This document shows, piece by piece, positions 7,195 through 22,189 of a stretch of DNA of 54,500 nt. Origin of the DNA: a bacterium (GTDB lineage Bacteria; CLD3; SB21); assembly GCA_019695335.1 (NCBI GenBank), contig JAIBAF010000020.1:1-54500 (forward strand), written 5' to 3'. The first letter of the stretch is position 1; the number at the start of each line of letters is the position of its first letter. Below the pieces are notes generated by a model. That model searched no databases. It was given only the letters and a program-made list of their open reading frames with translations, and was not told the DNA's origin. The position numbers and the translations under genes are program-made.

Positions 7195-7230
7195 ATGGTA
7201 TCGCATAAAATTTTTCAAGGAGACAATCAT

Positions 7231-8250
7231 ATGAGAAAGATCTTATCCATACTGATGATAGCGTTATATGCTATCACTGTACAGGCCGGTGAAGAGAAAC
7301 GCGGAGAGGCCGGCTTCATGTTTTTGAAGGTTCCGATGGGCGCCCGGGAGGTTGGTATGGGCATGAACGGTCTGACGACGACCAGTGGCGCTAATGCGAT
7401 ATACTGGAACCCGGCGAATATATCGTCGGCGGATCGGGCAACGTTTTCGTTTTCGTATTTGAATCACTTTGCTGGTATCAGCTCAAACTATGCTGCGGTG
7501 TCGTTTCCGTATGCGGAAGCGGGCGTGTTTGCGATATCGTTCAACTACTTGAGTTACGGAGATATCGAAAAGACAACGGAAGCGAGTCCGGGAGGGAATA
7601 TCGGATTTTATTCACCGTATGAACTGGCGTTAGGTTTTTCGTATTCGAAACAGATCACGGACCGTGTGAGCGGTGGTTTGACGGTGAAGTTCATCAATTC
7701 GAAGATCGACCTGGTATCGGCCAGTGGAGTGAGCTTCGATTTTGGTTTTACGTATAACACGGGTTACCGTGGACTGAAGCTGGGCTTTGCGGCGACGAAT
7801 ATCGGTCCGCAGGCCAAGTATGATGGCGACGGTCTTACGCGCGAAATCGTTGATGCTTCAGGTTCGACGTCCTTTTTAAAATTCGATTCTGAGCCGTTTG
7901 AATTACCGGCGGCGGTGAATTTTGGAGCGAGCATGGAGTTGTATCGCAATGAACAGAATTCGATCACAGGTTTACTGGAGCAGAACATCAACAGCTTCCA
8001 GGCGAGTCGTACGAATCTGGGCTTTGAGTATGGGTTCCAGAACATGGTGTTTGCCCGTATGGGATACACGTCGACGTTGAAGAAAGACCGGGATTACAAG
8101 ACAGGTAAAGCATCGACGGCGGGCTTGACGTTCGGCGGCGGTATTGACTATAAGTTCAATGACAATCTCGGTGTCACGGTTGATTACGGTTATCTTGATA
8201 TGGGGCAACTTGATGCAACCCATCGTTTTACAGTTGGTATTAAATTCTAA
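7231..8250 (+). CDS. PorV/PorQ-family outer-membrane protein
   Basis: This is a 339-aa outer-membrane beta-barrel of the FadL-like PorV/PorQ family. In T9SS organisms PorV takes cargo from the translocon to the attachment complex. A signal peptide (MRKILSILMIALYAITVQAG) is followed by the family hallmark GAREVGMGMNGLTTTSGANA and YWNPANI, then repeated amphipathic strands ending in VGIKF. I chose the ATG at 7231 because AAGGAGA (7217-7223) lies just before it; an in-frame start at 7195 would put 12 extra residues before the signal peptide and overlap the stem-loop. Its place after a TonB receptor and a secreted giant suggests a dedicated secretion partner for this locus, but the family also includes proteins with no proven T9SS role. 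No other T9SS machinery gene is visible in the window. Confidence 0.88.
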   Translation: MRKILSILMIALYAITVQAGEEKRGEAGFMFLKVPMGAREVGMGMNGLTTTSGANAIYWNPANISSADRATFSFSYLNHFAGISSNYAAVSFPYAEAGVFAISFNYLSYGDIEKTTEASPGGNIGFYSPYELALGFSYSKQITDRVSGGLTVKFINSKIDLVSASGVSFDFGFTYNTGYRGLKLGFAATNIGPQAKYDGDGLTREIVDASGSTSFLKFDSEPFELPAAVNFGASMELYRNEQNSITGLLEQNINSFQASRTNLGFEYGFQNMVFARMGYTSTLKKDRDYKTGKASTAGLTFGGGIDYKFNDNLGVTVDYGYLDMGQLDATHRFTVGIKF

Positions 8251-8310: not shown

Positions 8311-8467
8311 AAAAAAAATATATTTAAACTCCATCTCAAATAACTTACACTTTTTCATGTAATTTTTTACAGGTTGAAAAGTACTATTTCAATATATTCT
8401 ATATACAGCAAGCCGAATGCTGAGATCTGAATTGCTTGCGACCGTTCCACATAAGATCGGAGGGGAT

Positions 8468-11400
8468 ATGAAATCAGTTTTACGAACATTAATATGGGTG
8501 GCAGCAATTAGCTTACTTGCTGCATGGCTTATTTCTCAAAGCGAGGCAAAAGAAGATGGAAGAATTAAGCTCAAAGCGAGACTCAGAAAGCCGGATATTG
8601 TCGAGACGATATGGATTGGATATAATAATTGGAATTATGTAATGCGAAATACAGGTCAGTATTTCTATAACTATAATGGTGCTGAACCATCAGGGGGTAA
8701 CAGTGCCGGCAGTGAATTTCCACGAGGAACAGGCAGGACACTTGTTTACGCGGCTGGGTTTTATTTTGCAACTATCAAGGACGGCATTAAAGTTTGTAGC
8801 GAAGTTGAATATTCTTCAGAATATCAGCCTGGTAGAATTGTAAATTCCAATGTTCCGTTCAGTTCACTGCAGGCTGAAAATCCCGCCGCCGCGCCCAACA
8901 AAGTTTATTTCATCAACAAATATAATCAAGGAGAGGGTGACGATTCGGCCAGCGTGGCCGATTGGACAAGCTGGCCAGGTCAGAGGACTGCTTCAAATCA
9001 GCCTTCCCTTATTGCGGATGCTCAGACATGGGTGGTATTTAATGATCTGGATACAACGAGGAGCCAGGAAAAGTCTGGGACGAGCCCGAATCCCGGATTG
9101 GGAGTGGAAGTAGTTTTAGAGTCGTTTGTATTTGACGAGCCTTTGTTATCCGATGTGGTGTTTTTAAAATTCACGATCACAAATAAAACCAATGTCGACT
9201 ATACTGATTCGTATTTTGGAATATATGCTGATTCGGATGTCAATAATTCGTTTAATGATATTGTAGGATCCGATTCAATTCTTGGAATTGGATTCGCTTA
9301 TGATTCCGAAGACGAGCCATTTCCTGCGGCAGTCGGATTTGATTTTTTTCAGGGACCTATAGCAGATACTTCGGAAATTTTAATAGATGCTTATCTAAAA
9401 TTCAGCGGGAATACTCATAGGCTGTACTATAATTCGTCGGGCAATAACTATGAGCAAAAACTGTTAAATGGTGATAGCGTATGGCTTGGCGCTATTTCAA
9501 CTGCTTCTTATGACCATGGGACCGATCCTCACGCCAATAATGAGCGGTATAACCTGCTGGCAGGTTTAAATAGAAGCGGAATTGCTAAAACAGATAATGG
9601 CAGAGGTTATAAATATATATTTCCTGGCAATCCACTTACACAACAGGGGTCACCGGATGTTGCGTCGGAACGGGATGGAAATGACTGGCGAATTTTGAAC
9701 AGCACCGGTCCTTTCACGTTAAGATCGGGAGATAATCAGGAGATATGGGCAGGAGTGATCGGAGGCGAAGGCGCGAACCGGTTAGCGGCATTTGCAAAGA
9801 TGAAACAAACGGATTTGTACGCTCAAATGGTATTGAGTTCAGGCTTTGCTCGTCCCGAGCCGCCCGAAGTACCAAAAATCGCAGTAGCCGGGATGGATAA
9901 AGCCGTATTCATTTCGTGGGGCAATGCGGCAGAATATACGGTGGATGAGTTTGGCCAGAAAGCCGGAATCACGACACCGCTGTATACCGCGGATTATGTG
10001 ATGTATGATTTTCAAGGTTACCGGGTGTATAAAAGCCTGACAGGTTTGGAAGGGAGTTACGAAAAGATAGCTGAGTTTGACAAGATAGACGGAAAGAGAG
10101 TTGAGATTACGGTATATGTTGATGAACGCGGTTTGCTTAGGATTGAACCTGTAGAGATCGGTACTGATAATGGGTTGAAGTATGTATATGTTGATCGGGA
10201 GGTGGTGAACGGAAGAAAGTATTATTATGCAGTATGTTCGTATGATGCGCAGCCGTATATCGGATATACAGGCAGTGCAGCAGCGTCACCGGATGGAGCG
10301 GCCATAGCCAGTCCGGTGGGACTGCCGATCACGCTAGAATCGTCCAAGATGGCCAATGCAGTGGCAGTGGTGCCGGATAAAGACCGACCGGGCGTAGAAG
10401 GCGTGGAAGTGAGTGCGGTTGAGCATTCCGCGGGCTATTCAGATGCTTCGTTAGAAGTGAATGTAATTGATCCGTCAAAAATAACCGGCAATGCATATAC
10501 AATAGAATTTTTTCAAATTCCAGGTAGTCAAGGTGGAGATACATTGCAAGGGCTTACGCCGAATATCATGGCGTATCGGATTTTTCGTGAAGGGATACTA
10601 ATTCCGTTTTCGAATAAAGCGGACGATCCTTCGACGTATCGTGACGTGAATAGGAATGGAATCTATGACGGAGGGGATCAGGAAGTCGATGACCGTTATT
10701 TTTCAACGATCATCGCATCAAAGGATGAGGATGAGAAGGATGAGTTGTTTAGTATCGTGGATGGAGTATTGATCAAAGTATATGGTCCTCCTGTCGGATA
10801 TTTTAAATCGGTTACCTATACTCCAGGGCCACAGTTTACAAGCATAGGCTTTACGCAGGCATGGTTCCGCGGGGCGTGGAATGGTAATAGGCTTACCATT
10901 CCCGAATTCAATACATGGGGTCTCTCCAGTCCGTCCGGTATTTTTTCTCCCAATTCAGATTTAGTCGGCGGAGTTTTTAGAAATGCCAATGGATCGTTTG
11001 CATCTACCGAAATAGAAGCCGAAACAGTTACGACAGCCAACAAGGATTTCGAGATCCAGTTCAGCCGTGATTCGACGAAGTGGAGTTATGCGTATTGTAC
11101 CAACGGTGGTACATTAGGATTAGTTAATTATCTGCGTGTGCCGTTTAAAGTATTTGAAATCGATCCGTCGGATGGAGTAACAGTTGCACGTCAGATCAAT
11201 ACGACGTTACGCAATAGTCATTATGATACCGGCGGACCGAATGCATTGTGGTCGCTTGAAAGTATTGGATTAAGTGCTATTGCTGCGGATGACGGTTTTG
11301 GACCTGAACGTCGAAGTACGATGGGTTTTGATACAAGTTCGTATGATCTGAGTGCTTTGACAGGACATTTTGGAGTGATGCCGTTCAATGGGCGGCCGCT

Positions 11401-12097
11401 GGAACCTAATGTGACATTGTATGGCATTGGAACAGCTAATTATGCGGCTTGGTTTCCGACTTATCGTGATAATGAGGATGATAATTCGGCAGAAGGGCGT
11501 TTTGATGGAATAGCATACCGTGATTTCATCCGTACGCAAATGGGATATGATTCTATGGCGGATGATTATGCGATTGATATGGTAACCCGAGGTTTACAAG
11601 GATTGATTTACCGTAATATTCCTGATGAAGGAATCCTAACAGCGAGAGTGTATCATCTAATCACTCCGAATGATCGTTATACATTTACAACCAAAGCGCT
11701 AACCAAAGCGGAGAATAAGACGATACGCCGGTCATTGAAGGACATAAAGGTGGTACCGAATCCTTATTATGGGCAGGCGTATAGAGATCAAGTATTGCAA
11801 GGGGAAAAGCTGTTAAAGTTTATGAATTTACCGGATGTGGTGACGATCAAGGTGTTTACGGTATCGGGGGATTTGGTGAAGATTATACAACATAATGCGA
11901 CATCGAATAATGAACGTTTGGACACGGAGCCTTACACGAAGGGAGAACCGGAGTCAGGATATACGGGGATGGAGATATGGGATTTGAGGAATGAGCGAGG
12001 GCGATTCATTGCGAGCGGGATGTACATTGCATTGATCGAAGTCCCGAAGATCGGAAAAACGACGGTGAAGTTTGCTGTCATTCAGCAAGAAGAGTAG
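8468..12097 (+). CDS. Second giant secreted surface protein, paralogue of the 3579 gene product
   Basis: This 1,209-aa exported protein of unknown function matches the 1,190-aa protein block for block: signal segment, the KPDIVxxxxxGYNNWxYVMRN start, the same central GNPLTQQG and EGANRLAAFA stretches, a fibronectin III-like region, a calcium-loop-like DVNRNGIYDGGDQ, and a VVPNPYY/FlgD-like C-terminus ending KFAVIQQEE. The ATG at 8468 is preferred because GGAGGGG (8459-8465) precedes it and it opens directly on the signal peptide; an in-frame start at 8417 lies further upstream. It follows a strong terminator, so it is separately transcribed. Its codon choice (more AGA, GGA, GGG) looks less like that of highly expressed genes than its paralogue's, hinting at a silent or conditional copy. 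Its last 20 bases overlap the convergent gene. Confidence 0.85.
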   Translation: MKSVLRTLIWVAAISLLAAWLISQSEAKEDGRIKLKARLRKPDIVETIWIGYNNWNYVMRNTGQYFYNYNGAEPSGGNSAGSEFPRGTGRTLVYAAGFYFATIKDGIKVCSEVEYSSEYQPGRIVNSNVPFSSLQAENPAAAPNKVYFINKYNQGEGDDSASVADWTSWPGQRTASNQPSLIADAQTWVVFNDLDTTRSQEKSGTSPNPGLGVEVVLESFVFDEPLLSDVVFLKFTITNKTNVDYTDSYFGIYADSDVNNSFNDIVGSDSILGIGFAYDSEDEPFPAAVGFDFFQGPIADTSEILIDAYLKFSGNTHRLYYNSSGNNYEQKLLNGDSVWLGAISTASYDHGTDPHANNERYNLLAGLNRSGIAKTDNGRGYKYIFPGNPLTQQGSPDVASERDGNDWRILNSTGPFTLRSGDNQEIWAGVIGGEGANRLAAFAKMKQTDLYAQMVLSSGFARPEPPEVPKIAVAGMDKAVFISWGNAAEYTVDEFGQKAGITTPLYTADYVMYDFQGYRVYKSLTGLEGSYEKIAEFDKIDGKRVEITVYVDERGLLRIEPVEIGTDNGLKYVYVDREVVNGRKYYYAVCSYDAQPYIGYTGSAAASPDGAAIASPVGLPITLESSKMANAVAVVPDKDRPGVEGVEVSAVEHSAGYSDASLEVNVIDPSKITGNAYTIEFFQIPGSQGGDTLQGLTPNIMAYRIFREGILIPFSNKADDPSTYRDVNRNGIYDGGDQEVDDRYFSTIIASKDEDEKDELFSIVDGVLIKVYGPPVGYFKSVTYTPGPQFTSIGFTQAWFRGAWNGNRLTIPEFNTWGLSSPSGIFSPNSDLVGGVFRNANGSFASTEIEAETVTTANKDFEIQFSRDSTKWSYAYCTNGGTLGLVNYLRVPFKVFEIDPSDGVTVARQINTTLRNSHYDTGGPNALWSLESIGLSAIAADDGFGPERRSTMGFDTSSYDLSALTGHFGVMPFNGRPLEPNVTLYGIGTANYAAWFPTYRDNEDDNSAEGRFDGIAYRDFIRTQMGYDSMADDYAIDMVTRGLQGLIYRNIPDEGILTARVYHLITPNDRYTFTTKALTKAENKTIRRSLKDIKVVPNPYYGQAYRDQVLQGEKLLKFMNLPDVVTIKVFTVSGDLVKIIQHNATSNNERLDTEPYTKGEPESGYTGMEIWDLRNERGRFIASGMYIALIEVPKIGKTTVKFAVIQQEE

Positions 12098-13058
12098 TTT
12101 TTTTTCTTTCTTTACCCAACAACGCGAGATACCAAATTAAAAAACATACGTTGGCAACGATAAAAGTCATCTTAAATTGGATAGTCATGTCCATGCGCGT
12201 GACAAAACCTTCGATCAATCCGGCAATAATCAATAACGGCGCAGCGCCCAGGATCAATTTAATCGAGTCGAATCCGTAAATTTTTAATGCCTCGCGACGG
12301 CTGTAAGATTCAGGAAAAACCAGCGCCTTACCGATTAGTAATCCGGCTCCGCCGGCAATAAAAATACACGTTAATTCGATGGTACCGTGCAACATCACCG
12401 TGGCTACGGATTCTGTCAATAGATTGTGCTCAAAAAAAACAAAGAAAAAAACACCAAGCATTAATCCATTGTAGAACATAACGTAGATCGTTCCCACGCC
12501 GGCCAAAATCCCCATTCCATACGCAAAAAAAGTGACTTTAATATTGTTGGTCATGATGAAGCTTGACATCACAGGACTGTCCGCTTGTTTATATACAGCA
12601 AAAGGGTCGTTCTTTTGTATATTTTCAAGCGTCATGTTAACATAATAATCACCGAGGATATATTGCGGCAATTGCGGATTGGATAGACTACCGATAAAAG
12701 CAAAAATGGCTGCAACTAAAAAGATCAGGAAAGCGCATAGTGAAAATCGGAAATGGTGTCTGAACATGTTAGGAAATTCAGAAAAGAAAAAATCTGAAAG
12801 TTTTTTCCAGCGGAATGGTTGCGAGCCATAAATAACCGCGTGAGCTTTGCCCATCAGTGTATTGAGCTCGATGACGACGCGGTCATAAGGGTAATTGGCT
12901 TTAGCATAGGCATAATCCGCGGATATTGAACGGTAAAGACGCACCATTTCAGACAGATCTTCCTCCCGTTTACTGGATGCGCCGCTGTTCGCTTCGATCA
13001 AGGCATTCAGGCGATTCCAGGTATCTTTTTTTTGTTTGACAAACGTTTCAAATTTCAA
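12078..13058 (-). CDS. SpoIIM-like (DUF95) integral membrane protein
   Basis: This 326-aa membrane protein belongs to the stage II sporulation protein M-like family. A soluble N-terminus of about 100 residues is followed by a first membrane helix (FSLCAFLIFLVAAIFAFIG) and then several more with the conserved family signature around GTIELTCIFIAGGAGLLIGKA. In non-sporulating bacteria these proteins are common and their role is poorly known. It is the last gene of a four-gene operon (kinase, HAD phosphatase, nucleotidyltransferase, SpoIIM) and overlaps the nucleotidyltransferase gene by 11 bases. In Firmicutes SpoIIM works with peptidoglycan hydrolases during engulfment, so a cell-wall link would fit the operon, but that is inference. 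Its 3' end overlaps the convergent giant-protein gene by 20 bases. Confidence 0.85.
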   Translation of the reverse strand: MKFETFVKQKKDTWNRLNALIEANSGASSKREEDLSEMVRLYRSISADYAYAKANYPYDRVVIELNTLMGKAHAVIYGSQPFRWKKLSDFFFSEFPNMFRHHFRFSLCAFLIFLVAAIFAFIGSLSNPQLPQYILGDYYVNMTLENIQKNDPFAVYKQADSPVMSSFIMTNNIKVTFFAYGMGILAGVGTIYVMFYNGLMLGVFFFVFFEHNLLTESVATVMLHGTIELTCIFIAGGAGLLIGKALVFPESYSRREALKIYGFDSIKLILGAAPLLIIAGLIEGFVTRMDMTIQFKMTFIVANVCFLIWYLALLGKERKKTTLLAE

Positions 13059-13758
13059 ACGGTAAATCCTCTGAATTAATGCGTTGCAGGCTTTCTTTGG
13101 TTCCTACGTCACACCAAAAACCGTTGAAATCGTAGGCTGCAATATAACGTTGTTCATGTAAAGCGGGTTGATAAAACGTGGTAATCACGGATGAGAACTC
13201 GTGCTTTAAGTATTGGAATGCAACTGGGCTTAAAATATGAATGCCCGTAAACATACGAGCAATGTAAATCTTCGGCGGTGTTGGAACATCATTGATCGAA
13301 ACCACATTGAAATCATTGTTCAGTTTGATTTCATCGAAGTTGGGCACTTGCGGATCATGCCGGACTACCATTGTCGCATCGCTTTTGCACTTCATGTGAT
13401 AGTGAATGACGTCAGCCAGATTAATATCACAAACTATATCACTATTGATCACGACAAAAATTTCATCGCCCAACAACGCTTCAGCATTTTTAATCCCGCC
13501 GCCGGTTCCAAGAATGGTTTTTTCTTCAGAATAATGGATGATCATATCCAACGATCGTCCATCGCCCAGAACATTTTTTATTTTGTCTCCATGATGATGA
13601 ACGTTAATAATAACGTCACGTATTCCCGCCTTTTTTAAAACGGAAAGCGGATAATAAATCAAAGGTCGTCCGTGCACTTCGATCAGCGGTTTGGGAAGTG
13701 TGGCCGTAATCTCCTGAAGGCGCGTACCGTAGCCGGCCGCCAATAGCATCGCCTTCAT
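13048..13758 (-). CDS. MurU-like sugar-1-phosphate nucleotidyltransferase
   Basis: This 236-aa enzyme would join a sugar 1-phosphate to a nucleotide and release pyrophosphate. The N-terminal signature LAAGYGTRL (residues 6-14) with a following PKPLI lysine is the nucleotide-binding loop of the family; GTGGGIKNA and NSDIV (metal-binding Asp) follow in order. Length and motifs fit short stand-alone members such as MurU (UDP-MurNAc formation) or mannose-1-phosphate guanylyltransferases; the left-handed beta-helix acyltransferase domain of GlmU is absent. It overlaps the upstream HAD gene by 4 bases (ATGA), and the first gene of the operon is an AmgK-like kinase, the usual MurU partner. That context favours MurNAc 1-phosphate as substrate, though a heptose or mannose route is not excluded. 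Confidence 0.85.
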   Translation of the reverse strand: MKAMLLAAGYGTRLQEITATLPKPLIEVHGRPLIYYPLSVLKKAGIRDVIINVHHHGDKIKNVLGDGRSLDMIIHYSEEKTILGTGGGIKNAEALLGDEIFVVINSDIVCDINLADVIHYHMKCKSDATMVVRHDPQVPNFDEIKLNNDFNVVSINDVPTPPKIYIARMFTGIHILSPVAFQYLKHEFSSVITTFYQPALHEQRYIAAYDFNGFWCDVGTKESLQRINSEDLPFEI

Positions 13759-14534
13759 ACAGATCCGAGCTTTTGAATAACGGAGGGTAAATCAATGACT
13801 TTCTCAACGACGGCATCGGCGGCTTCACTGGGGCTATTAGGTTCAATTTGCCAGTTTTTGATACGATCAAGAGACGCGAGATAGAGCTCTTGTTTTTTAT
13901 TTTTTGTCGTAAAGCCTTTACGATAAGTATTCCAATGAACCTGAATGGTCATCATATCGAGTTGTTTGGCCGGAAAAATGTCCCGGTCGATGCGATCGCC
14001 GATCATAACGGCCTGATCAAAACTGCATCCGGCATGATTCACAGCCCATTCAAAGATTTTCTTACGCGGTTTGTTCATGTTTAACAAACCACTGATGGCA
14101 AATATTTTGAAATACTCTTCGATGCCGTTTTTCTTCAGAAATTGCATAATCTCGTGAGGCTGGTCTGCAATGATTCCAAGCGAATAGATTTTACTTAGCT
14201 TTTTTAATACTTTATCCATTCCCGGAACAAGGATCAGGTCACGTGTCAGATGTTTGTGAATATAGGTTTTGATGGAATCATGCCATTGATCATAGGCCGC
14301 TTTATCCAGATACATTTTAGCAATGGTGTAGTGCGGCGACTCATCGGCATGACCTAAGATCAGATCTTCACGGCATGCAATAATGTCCTGAAAAGTGAGA
14401 TCGATTTTATGTTCGCGTAAACTGGATTCGAGGATTTTGTAAATGTTAAAGCGGAGCTTGTCTTCATTCGCAACGACGTCTCCGATATCGAAGAACAGCC
14501 ATTGCACGCGGCGATTTCTAACTGCGGTTGCCAT
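13755..14534 (-). CDS. HAD-superfamily phosphatase, candidate MurNAc-6-phosphate phosphatase by context
   Basis: This 259-aa haloacid dehalogenase-type hydrolase has motif I as FFDIGDVV (nucleophile Asp16), with Gly in place of the usual second Asp, as in YihX-type sugar phosphatases. Motif II is IIADQP, with Ala where Ser/Thr is normal. A lysine follows in NMNKPRKK, and motif IV is MIGDRIDRD. A helical cap lies between motifs I and II. It sits between an AmgK-like kinase (17-base overlap) and a MurU-like transferase (4-base overlap). In Pseudomonas the phosphatase MupP, also of the HAD superfamily, acts just before AmgK and MurU, so this protein may fill that step. The atypical motifs I and II leave activity and substrate open. 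Confidence 0.75.
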   Translation of the reverse strand: MATAVRNRRVQWLFFDIGDVVANEDKLRFNIYKILESSLREHKIDLTFQDIIACREDLILGHADESPHYTIAKMYLDKAAYDQWHDSIKTYIHKHLTRDLILVPGMDKVLKKLSKIYSLGIIADQPHEIMQFLKKNGIEEYFKIFAISGLLNMNKPRKKIFEWAVNHAGCSFDQAVMIGDRIDRDIFPAKQLDMMTIQVHWNTYRKGFTTKNKKQELYLASLDRIKNWQIEPNSPSEAADAVVEKVIDLPSVIQKLGSV

Positions 14535-15510
14535 AAGCCACTATCCGGTTTAGTAATTCATAAGTTTCACCGAAAACTTCGTACCGTTTCATGGATTGAA
14601 GAACGTGATGAACCACATTGGAAATGTACGGTAAATACTTTTTATTTCCAAAATGTTTATAAGCGTAGACAAAAGCTCCCGCATCATGCAATTTGCGTTG
14701 AATCAAAGTCCAGTCATAAATTCGATCAAAACTGTCCGGATTAAATAAATCCAGTTTTACTGTTCTATTGAAGTAATATCTGATTAATTCACGCTTAAAA
14801 TCAGGATCCAACGGTACGTAGACGTCTTCAATAAGGGAAACGAGATCGTATTGAGCTGGTCCCCACCGCGCATCTTGAAAATCTACCAAATACAATCGGT
14901 CAAATGAAAGCAACAAATTGGAAGATTGAAAATCACGGTGAGTAAAAACGCGTGGTTGTAAGGAAATTTCCGTAGCAAGCAGCCGGTGAAAATCGTCAAG
15001 AATTTTTTCTTCCTGTTCATTTAATGTATACTGAAAATGATTTTTTAGTAATTGTTCTTGGATATGGAATTGATATTCAAAAGTAAATTTTTCGTAATCA
15101 AAGACACGATGTGCCGCCACGGACGAAACGAATCCCGGAATAATTTGCAGCCGTATCAACAGATCGATGGCTTGAAAATAAAGATTTCGATTTTGGAGAT
15201 AATTATCACAAATGCGGTTTTCAAGCGTATGGTCACCCAAGTCTTCGACCAGCAGGAAATTAAATTCTGTGTTTTTATAAAAAATCTTTGGCGATGGAAT
15301 AGACTGTGATTCAAAAACGCGTTGAATTTCAATGTAATCCTTGAGTGACTCGGGTTTATCGGCCATCGATTGCAGCAACAGCGATGGCTGCTTCCACTTG
15401 TCCGCCAGCGATCCGGTTATTCGGAAAAATTTTTTCGAAGATGCTCCCGAGCTTACTGGCGTAAGCGTGAATGGTTGCTGAGGAAACAATTTGTTTAAAA
15501 CGTGATTCAT
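14518..15510 (-). CDS. AmgK-like aminoglycoside phosphotransferase-family sugar kinase
   Basis: This 330-aa kinase has the aminoglycoside phosphotransferase/choline kinase fold. Visible motifs are VEDLGD (88-93, hinge), the catalytic loop HRDFQSSN (191-198; catalytic Asp193, Asn198) and the metal-binding LVDFQDARWGPAQYDLVSL (from about 208). The FQDA.WGP.xYDLVSL pattern is characteristic of AmgK, the anomeric MurNAc/GlcNAc kinase of the cell-wall recycling bypass, which makes MurNAc 1-phosphate for MurU. It is the first gene of a fully overlapping operon that includes a MurU-like enzyme. No clear Shine-Dalgarno precedes the ATG. True antibiotic phosphotransferases have a different loop context, so a resistance role is unlikely. 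Confidence 0.82.
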   Translation of the reverse strand: MNHVLNKLFPQQPFTLTPVSSGASSKKFFRITGSLADKWKQPSLLLQSMADKPESLKDYIEIQRVFESQSIPSPKIFYKNTEFNFLLVEDLGDHTLENRICDNYLQNRNLYFQAIDLLIRLQIIPGFVSSVAAHRVFDYEKFTFEYQFHIQEQLLKNHFQYTLNEQEEKILDDFHRLLATEISLQPRVFTHRDFQSSNLLLSFDRLYLVDFQDARWGPAQYDLVSLIEDVYVPLDPDFKRELIRYYFNRTVKLDLFNPDSFDRIYDWTLIQRKLHDAGAFVYAYKHFGNKKYLPYISNVVHHVLQSMKRYEVFGETYELLNRIVAYGNRS

Positions 15511-15557
15511 ATTTATGTACGCTAATCTACAATTAAAATACTCAATCCGATTGTTTT

Positions 15558-15577
15558 TGTGAAATATTATTTCTTAT
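15558..15577 (+). promoter_or_regulatory. Possible Rex-type half site between divergent genes
   Basis: TTGTGAAATATT matches the left half of the Rex operator (TTGTGAAATATTTCACAA), but the right half is degenerate (ATTTCTTA). It lies between the AmgK-like operon and the Rieske gene. A rex gene is present at 36065. Confidence 0.25.
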
Positions 15578-15639
15578 ATTAAAAAAGTAATTTTTCCAAT
15601 CGCTATCATTGACCTTTAATTTAATGCAAGGAGCGAGGC

Positions 15640-20584: not shown

Positions 20585-22189
20585 TTAGTAAATTTTCAGT
20601 TCTTTGTCGTCGATAGTGACGGACGGATACTCGCGCAGTTTGGCGATCATTTCATCCATGATTTGATGCAAACGGTTTTCTGATTTTGCTTCGAAACGTA
20701 CTACGAGAACAGGCTGTGTGTTCGAAGCGCGTACCAGCCCCCAGCCGTCGCCGTATAAAACGCGTACGCCGTCTACGTCGATGATTGAATATTTTGACCG
20801 GAAATATTCACGGACCTCATCTACGATTCTGAATTTGTCCTCTTCCGTTGTGTCGACACGGATTTCAGGCGTAGAATAAAAATGAGGAAAACTATCGGCT
20901 AATTCAGACAATTTTTTAGGCTGACGCGATAGCAATTGCACCAAACGGCACGCGACGTAAATGGCATCATCGTATCCAAAGAAATCATCGGCAAAAAATA
21001 TGTGACCGCTCATTTCACCGGCCAACGGGCTGTGCATTTCTTTCATTTTGGCTTTGAGAAGCGAGTGACCGGTTTTCCACATAAACGGTTTTCCGCCGTG
21101 CGCTTCGATGTCTTCAATAAGGCCTTGGGAACATTTGACGTCAAAAAGAATTTGAGATCCCGGTTTTTTTTGATTGATCTCGCGGGCCAACAGCGCCAGT
21201 AACTTATCCGCCCATACAATGCGGCCTTTTTCATCGATCGCGCCGACCCGGTCGGAATCTCCGTCAAATCCGAGGCCGATATCGGCTCCATGTTCAACAA
21301 CCAATTTTCGTAAATCTTCCACGTATTCTAATTTAGTAGGGTCAGGCAAGTGATTTGGAAAATTGCCGTCCGGTTCGCAATACAGTTCGATCACTTCGCA
21401 GCCAAGGTCACGGAAAATTTTCGGGGCGATCACTCCGGCAGTGCCGTTACCGGAATCGATGACGATCTTGAATTTCCGGTTCAGGTGAATTTTGGAAGCA
21501 ATCATATCGAAATAATGTGCTACAATCGGTTTTTCTTCCACTTGTCCACGACCGGTTTTGAAATCCCCGGTATCGATCATATGTTTCAGTTCTTGAATTT
21601 GTGCGCCATAAATCGGAGCGAGCCCCAAGCACATTTTGAATCCATTGTATTCACGGGGATTATGACTACCGGTAACCATAATGCCGCCGTCCGTTTTATA
21701 ATATTCGATCGAGTAGTATAATACCGGCGTCGGAATTTCGCCCACATCGATGACGTTCATGCCGGTTGATAGCATTCCGCGCACCAGTGCGTTTTTAAGA
21801 CTGAGTGAAGTCGTCCGTACGTCGCGCCCGACAGTAATTTTTTTTGCGCCTTTTTTGATCATGAACGACGCGTAAGCTTTGCCGAGCAATTCGACAACGC
21901 CGGGTTTCAGATCATCGACGACGATACCGCGAATATCGTATTCCCTGAAAATGTTCGGATTAACGTATACTGTCTGAGAAGGCTTGGCTGGCGAGGTTTT
22001 ACCGGCAGGTTTTTTATTATTGGTTTTGGATTTCGAAGTTTTACTTTTTTTTGACGCACTTTTTTTAATAACTTTTTTCGACACTTTCCCGGTCGTTTTG
22101 ACTTTCTTTCCCGCGCCCAGCTTTTTTTTTGATTTTTTTCTTAAAGTTTTCTTACTTGTTTTTTTTACACGCTTGATTGTCTTGGCCAT
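20585..22189 (-). CDS. Phosphomannomutase/phosphoglucomutase with lysine-rich N-terminal tail
   Basis: This 534-aa enzyme interconverts hexose 6- and 1-phosphates. The catalytic domain begins near residue 75 (FREYDIRGI), with the active-site phosphoserine Ser175 in TGSHNPREYNGFK, the metal loop GFDGDSDR, the sugar loop GEMSGH and the phosphate-binding RASNTQPVLVVRFEA. The domain is AlgC/ManB-like. The first 70 residues are unusual: 28 are lysine, mixed with Ser, Thr, Ala and Pro, like histone H1 or HU-tail sequences. The tail is in frame with a good start (AAAGGAAG upstream), so it is probably real. It may bind nucleic acid or anionic polymers. A PIN toxin-antitoxin pair follows 13 bases downstream. 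Confidence 0.9.
   Translation of the reverse strand: MAKTIKRVKKTSKKTLRKKSKKKLGAGKKVKTTGKVSKKVIKKSASKKSKTSKSKTNNKKPAGKTSPAKPSQTVYVNPNIFREYDIRGIVVDDLKPGVVELLGKAYASFMIKKGAKKITVGRDVRTTSLSLKNALVRGMLSTGMNVIDVGEIPTPVLYYSIEYYKTDGGIMVTGSHNPREYNGFKMCLGLAPIYGAQIQELKHMIDTGDFKTGRGQVEEKPIVAHYFDMIASKIHLNRKFKIVIDSGNGTAGVIAPKIFRDLGCEVIELYCEPDGNFPNHLPDPTKLEYVEDLRKLVVEHGADIGLGFDGDSDRVGAIDEKGRIVWADKLLALLAREINQKKPGSQILFDVKCSQGLIEDIEAHGGKPFMWKTGHSLLKAKMKEMHSPLAGEMSGHIFFADDFFGYDDAIYVACRLVQLLSRQPKKLSELADSFPHFYSTPEIRVDTTEEDKFRIVDEVREYFRSKYSIIDVDGVRVLYGDGWGLVRASNTQPVLVVRFEAKSENRLHQIMDEMIAKLREYPSVTIDDKELKIY

Follow-up and report, generated by a model that had tools for sequence, protein, structure and literature searches.

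Four overlapping genes occupy positions 15510 to 12078 on the minus strand of the window (the whole stretch of 54,500 nucleotides analysed here), and the head-to-tail arrangement that a first, sequence-only reading had proposed for them was confirmed. The series begins with an AmgK-type kinase of the APH fold (14518..15510; 330 aa; Pfam APH, 89.8 bits, E-value 3e-25), followed by a HAD phosphatase-like protein with a DxG motif I and an AxQP motif II (13755..14534; 259 aa; HAD_2, 4e-16), a MurU-type uridylyltransferase (13048..13758; NTP_transferase, 2e-34), and a SpoIIM-family membrane protein with a TTG start (12078..13058; 326 aa; SpoIIM, 132.6 bits, 2e-38). The overlaps at the three junctions are, in that order, 17, 4, and 11 nt, and the Pfam matches of all four ORFs exceed the curated cut-offs. 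Since homologs of the four ORFs occur in unchanged order in three other genomes (G001, G004, and G006), the arrangement is not due to chance. An intergenic stretch (15511..15639) separates amgK from a divergent Rieske gene, and it is here that the first three genes, hereafter the trio, are missing in genome G003. At the other end, spoIIM lies tail-to-tail, with a 20-nt overlap, with a plus-strand ORF of 1226 aa (8417-12097) that has no Pfam match, is located downstream of a PorV-like gene (7195-8250), and may encode a secreted surface protein.

Identity of the kinase and the transferase

Among NCBIfam models, the kinase best matched AmgK (NF045759; 142 bits, with a cut-off of 550), and a second AmgK model together with all other models scored at most 46 bits, giving AmgK a lead of nearly 100 bits. 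Its APH catalytic loop, HRDFQSSN, conforms to the HxDxxxxN pattern and is followed downstream by VDFQDAR. For the transferase, MurU (NF045761) was the top model with 179 bits (cut-off 250), 77 bits above the next one (102 bits); mannose-1-phosphate guanylyltransferase and HddC models were also matched, but less well. This single-domain protein of 236 aa carries the MurU signature LAAGxGTRL...PKPL (LAAGYGTRLQEITATLPKPL), and its best PDB match was 4y7t, the entry named MurU (8hhd) being matched as well. The equivalog cut-offs appear to be simply strict, since unrelated, non-proteobacterial AmgK and MurU sequences fall equally far below them: an AmgK encoded near MurU in a deltaproteobacterial MAG reached 152 bits, and MurUs with an AmgK nearby, one from the same MAG and one from a Nitrospira MAG, reached 172 and 170 bits.

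Across 80 MurU loci from public genomes, amgK commonly adjoins murU, and neither a HAD of the window type nor SpoIIM was found in these loci. Other arrangements were also encountered. MurU and AmgK share one ORF in a Desulfobacterales MAG (L034:6001-7872), and AmgK open frames of 624-687 aa in G142, G144, G156, G189, and G386 suggest further fusions. In several other lineages (L226:2480-3307, L220:2539-3369, L223, L227, and L229), amgK stands beside a gene for a xylose-isomerase-like TIM barrel or for a metallo-beta-lactamase fold, and either kind of neighbour is possibly a further part of a MurNAc pathway. MurU is also encoded in MAGs whose records bear the title Klebsiella pneumoniae or Bordetella parapertussis (L027, L055, L089, and L053), with amgK recognised beside it in L027 only; as E. 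coli and related enterobacteria are, according to the literature, devoid of the AmgK-MurU route, the Klebsiella titles are probably wrong.

The HAD protein and its association with AmgK

The two unusual motifs that the sequence-only reading had pointed out in the HAD protein are both real. Motif I (FFDIGDVV) carries Gly18 at the site of the second Asp, after the nucleophile D16, and motif II (GIIADQP) carries Ala123 at the Ser/Thr site. The other catalytic positions are intact, with K155 and a GDRIDRD motif (179-185) that provides the acids D180, D183, and D185. The AlphaFold (AF2) model displays a HAD fold (pLDDT 87), for which Foldseek returned 2hoq as the nearest PDB fold. Fold, nucleophile, K155, and motif IV acids are together those of a C1-cap HAD phosphatase. 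Gly18 and Ala123 are fixed across all relatives carrying the block, and most of the wider HAD branch, including members without AmgK linkage, likewise has Gly at Asp+2 and Ala in motif II; both substitutions are traits of the subfamily and no peculiarity of the window protein.

The protein had initially been assigned to the MupP step. Its occurrence with AmgK and MurU in one operon stands, but it is not a MupP ortholog. The MupP model NF009696 did not match it at an E-value of 0.01, whereas the retrieved MupP sequences used as references (L152 and L153) matched that model with 244 and 192 bits; the best model for the window HAD was TIGR02253 (88 bits; cut-off 169.75). In a tree whose long branches make its support values indicative only, the MupPs clustered with HADs of the Gph/PpaX type and away from the window branch, and orthology is also ruled out by the motifs (DxG and not DxD, Ala and not Ser/Thr). 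No MupP ortholog is present in the window genome (G000). A canonical, Gph-like HAD encoded on contig C7 of this genome scores as a phosphoglycolate phosphatase, and it is also found in a MurQ-type genome (G008).

With a profile built for the HAD, 386 genomes were searched, and the presence of AmgK in them was scored as well. Beyond the window family, the branch of the window HAD was identified in G233 and G092 (family f75), G300 (f219), and G123 (f106). The HAD gene lies directly after amgK and overlaps it in G233 and G092 (L203 and L204), and the same overlap, with the HAD gene directly downstream, is found in the f75 genomes G421 and G420; murU is absent beside amgK and the HAD gene at the f75 loci. 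The gene order in G300 is murU-amgK-HAD (L206), and in G123 the amgK gene lies at a different place in the genome from that of the HAD. The branch adjoins amgK in three families (f1, f75, and f219), and chance would hardly produce an immediate, same-strand overlap of the two genes in as many families. AmgK itself was found in 114 of the genomes searched (about 30%), and was present in 9/9 genomes with the window HAD branch versus 0/7 with sister branches, counts that are not phylogenetically independent. Ten AmgK-adjacent HADs and that of G123 fell on one side of a branch with a support of 91/94. The HAD-linked AmgKs have a catalytic loop, HRD[FY]Q[SA]SN, seen only in AmgKs of HAD-carrying genomes; the other AmgK loci examined mostly displayed HRD[FY]HSRN, and none had the former. 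Sister HADs with the same DxG/ANQP motifs were observed in genomes without AmgK (L138:7877-8647, L202:6271-7077, L205:6348-7130, and L209:6288-7085), and the one in L138 adjoins a CofH/MqnC-like radical SAM gene.

Within the operon, the HAD gene is under the strongest purifying selection, with a dN/dS of 0.03-0.05, about a quarter of the AmgK and MurU values and equal to that of the neighbouring FTCD gene. With the exception of the G420 protein, the HADs that are linked to AmgK or come from an AmgK genome, ten in number, all retain the nucleophile Asp, the motif III Lys, and at least two motif IV acids; among them is the G300 protein, which has Asn at the first motif IV Asp site (GNR). The HAD of G420, a single fragmented MAG, is encoded by a full-length ORF (L246:3904-4635, plus strand) overlapping an amgK with an intact loop, and it shows replacement of the nucleophile Asp by Glu (FIEPVDVL) and of the first motif IV Asp by Ser (GSR); it is a candidate natural pseudophosphatase. 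In MupP, the predicted catalytic mutant D12A was inactive in vivo (PMC5371409).

AnmK, MurQ, and SpoIIM around the trio

The pattern of AnmK and MurQ was established from nine genomes of the window's class. The sequence-only reading had advised looking for either enzyme in the window genome, which is 100% complete: AnmK is encoded on contig C4 (347 bits) and MurQ is absent, matches to MurQ models being weak and partial and fitting other SIS-domain proteins. The trio is associated with AnmK and the absence of MurQ in five of the nine genomes (G000, G001, G004, G005, and G006). Both AnmK and a true MurQ are encoded by G007 and G008, which belong to a sister family and in which neither a HAD nor an AmgK of the window kind was found. 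G003, a 100% complete genome of the same family as the window genome, is devoid of AnmK, MurQ, the HAD, AmgK, and a close MurU; at the syntenic site, its SpoIIM gene stands directly beside the divergent Rieske gene, with FTCD next. This site is a naturally occurring minus-trio locus, in a genome that has lost the upstream enzyme as well. G002 (85% complete) was left out of the evidence on absence, as its contig ends where amgK would start. A phosphohexomutase encoded in the window (20585-22189) was considered as a bypass and rejected: it occurs in G003 and G002 too, and is thus not linked to the trio.

SpoIIM had been put forward as a new membrane partner of the pathway, with the suggestion to examine whether the operon is conserved with it. 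Conservation was observed in G001, G004, and G006, where the SpoIIM gene adjoins murU, but two genomes separate it from the trio: the gene is kept in G003, where the trio is missing, and in G005, which carries the trio, the next conserved gene comes straight after murU and a search of the genome found no SpoIIM. The loci of f75 and f219 do not have SpoIIM either, and a Foldseek search with the window protein returned nothing significant. On the grounds of this two-way dissociation, SpoIIM was rejected as a partner; it is a lineage-specific neighbour of the trio, not a demonstrated partner. That it might still act as a functional membrane partner in the window lineage, for instance as an importer or as a scaffold where the wall is being turned over, is suggested by its overlap with murU and its retention after that gene in three genomes, but is highly improbable in view of the same dissociation and of the f75 and f219 loci.

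Proposed pathway and known systems

Our preferred reading, to which we give a probability of roughly 0.6, is that the trio forms an anabolic MurNAc recycling cassette in which the HAD is a non-orthologous replacement of MupP. AnmK, encoded elsewhere in the genome, would convert anhydroMurNAc into MurNAc-6P, from which the HAD would remove the 6-phosphate; AmgK would then convert MurNAc into MurNAc-alpha-1-P, and MurU would turn the latter into UDP-MurNAc, bypassing MurA/MurB. What the analysis demonstrates is the identity of the genes, their order and overlap, and their joint occurrence and loss; the substrates and activities of the enzymes, those of the HAD above all, are inferred. MurNAc as the substrate is supported by the presence of AnmK and the absence of MurQ in genomes with the trio, as well as by the co-loss with AnmK in G003. 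An operon that combines AmgK, MurU, and a HAD, in a genome that encodes AnmK and not MurQ, agrees with an anabolic route of the Pseudomonas type; to that extent the MurNAc route envisaged by the sequence-only reading is supported, and it has to be amended as to MupP. The HAD would have come from a DxG/AxQP branch of C1-cap HADs, with its translation coupled to that of AmgK. For a broader proposal the odds seem even, namely that MurNAc-6P phosphatases include a second family of independent recruitment, the AmgK-coupled DxG/AxQP HADs, which would complete the MurU pathway where MupP is lacking, would work without the usual second Asp as general acid/base, and would have an AmgK partner with a co-evolved, distinct catalytic loop.

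The trio might act on another sugar, such as a heptose, mannose, or a hexosamine for surface glycans. The scores of AmgK and MurU below equivalog cut-offs, the additional matches of MurU to mannose-1-phosphate guanylyltransferase and HddC models, and the unusual catalytic loop of the HAD-linked AmgKs are compatible with this idea, which we nevertheless regard as unlikely: the MurU and AmgK models clearly lead, MurNAc is indicated by the co-loss with AnmK in G003 and by the mutual exclusion of the trio and MurQ, and contig C23 carries a separate cluster of a sugar nucleotidyltransferase and a GmhA-like SIS protein, a better heptose locus that led us to reject the operon in this role. A different question is whether the HAD is catalytic at all. 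It could be a pseudophosphatase that binds the phosphosugar and regulates or stabilises AmgK, another HAD (e.g., the one on contig C7) performing the MurNAc-6P step. The window protein has neither the general acid/base at Asp+2 nor the motif II Ser/Thr, a canonical HAD is encoded elsewhere in the genome, and the HAD persistently overlaps amgK alone in f75; moreover, the G420 HAD has lost catalytic Asp residues while keeping a full ORF and the overlap with an intact amgK, so a non-catalytic role has to be considered. It seems rather unlikely, as the other ten HADs keep their nucleophile, Lys, and acids, E. coli YihX illustrates that a phosphatase can have Gly at Asp+2, and G420 is one fragmented MAG.

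HADs are often promiscuous, and an operon indicates association, not substrate; the protein could then be a housekeeping phosphatase for a side product of the pathway, such as GlcNAc-6P or a stray sugar 1-phosphate. We consider this very unlikely: without MurQ, a phosphatase is required before the MurNAc-6P from AnmK can enter the AmgK step, and, MupP being absent, it is the window HAD that accompanies AmgK.

The MurNAc recycling route as such is already known (PMC5371407, PMC5371409; PMC13046382 for Caulobacter), and the first two of these papers describe MupP only for Proteobacteria. No paper on a MupP replacement of this kind was found in the open-licence literature searched, and the new element is most likely that MupP is replaced by a protein of a different HAD branch, which is coupled to AmgK in a number of lineages. 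This branch may provide a specific candidate for the removal of the 6-phosphate outside MupP-bearing Proteobacteria, and comes with a natural minus-locus (G003) and a natural degenerate mutant (G420). If this is true, the salvage of UDP-MurNAc, which bypasses the fosfomycin target MurA, would extend to uncultured phyla.

Compared with characterized proteins, the window HAD shares with MupP (NF009696) the HAD_2 family and the proposed MurNAc-6P phosphatase step, but differs by its DxG motif, its motif II Ala, and its separate branch. TIGR02253 or PH1655-like HADs (2hoq) are nearest in model, PDB fold, and sequence, but have DLDD instead of DIGD in motif I, and the window score is under their cut-off. 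YihX, considered here from PDB chains and named there as a glucose-1-phosphate phosphatase, displays DLGN, with Gly at Asp+2 as in the window HAD, but represents another HAD subfamily with Ser in motif II and a different substrate. The window SpoIIM has the Pfam SpoIIM domain in common with SpoIIM of the DMP engulfment complex, whose other members are SpoIID and SpoIIP, and differs by an N-terminal extension of ~100 residues before the domain and by being separable from the trio. With the Pseudomonas AnmK-MupP-AmgK-MurU route, the window genome shares the presence of AnmK, the absence of MurQ, an available HAD phosphatase-like protein, and AmgK and MurU homologs that are adjacent or nearly so; in P. 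putida, amgK (PP_0405) adjoins murU (PP_0406), and mupP (PP_1764) is located elsewhere (PMC5371407). In contrast, the HAD gene of the window lies inside the operon, overlaps amgK, and belongs to another branch of the HADs.
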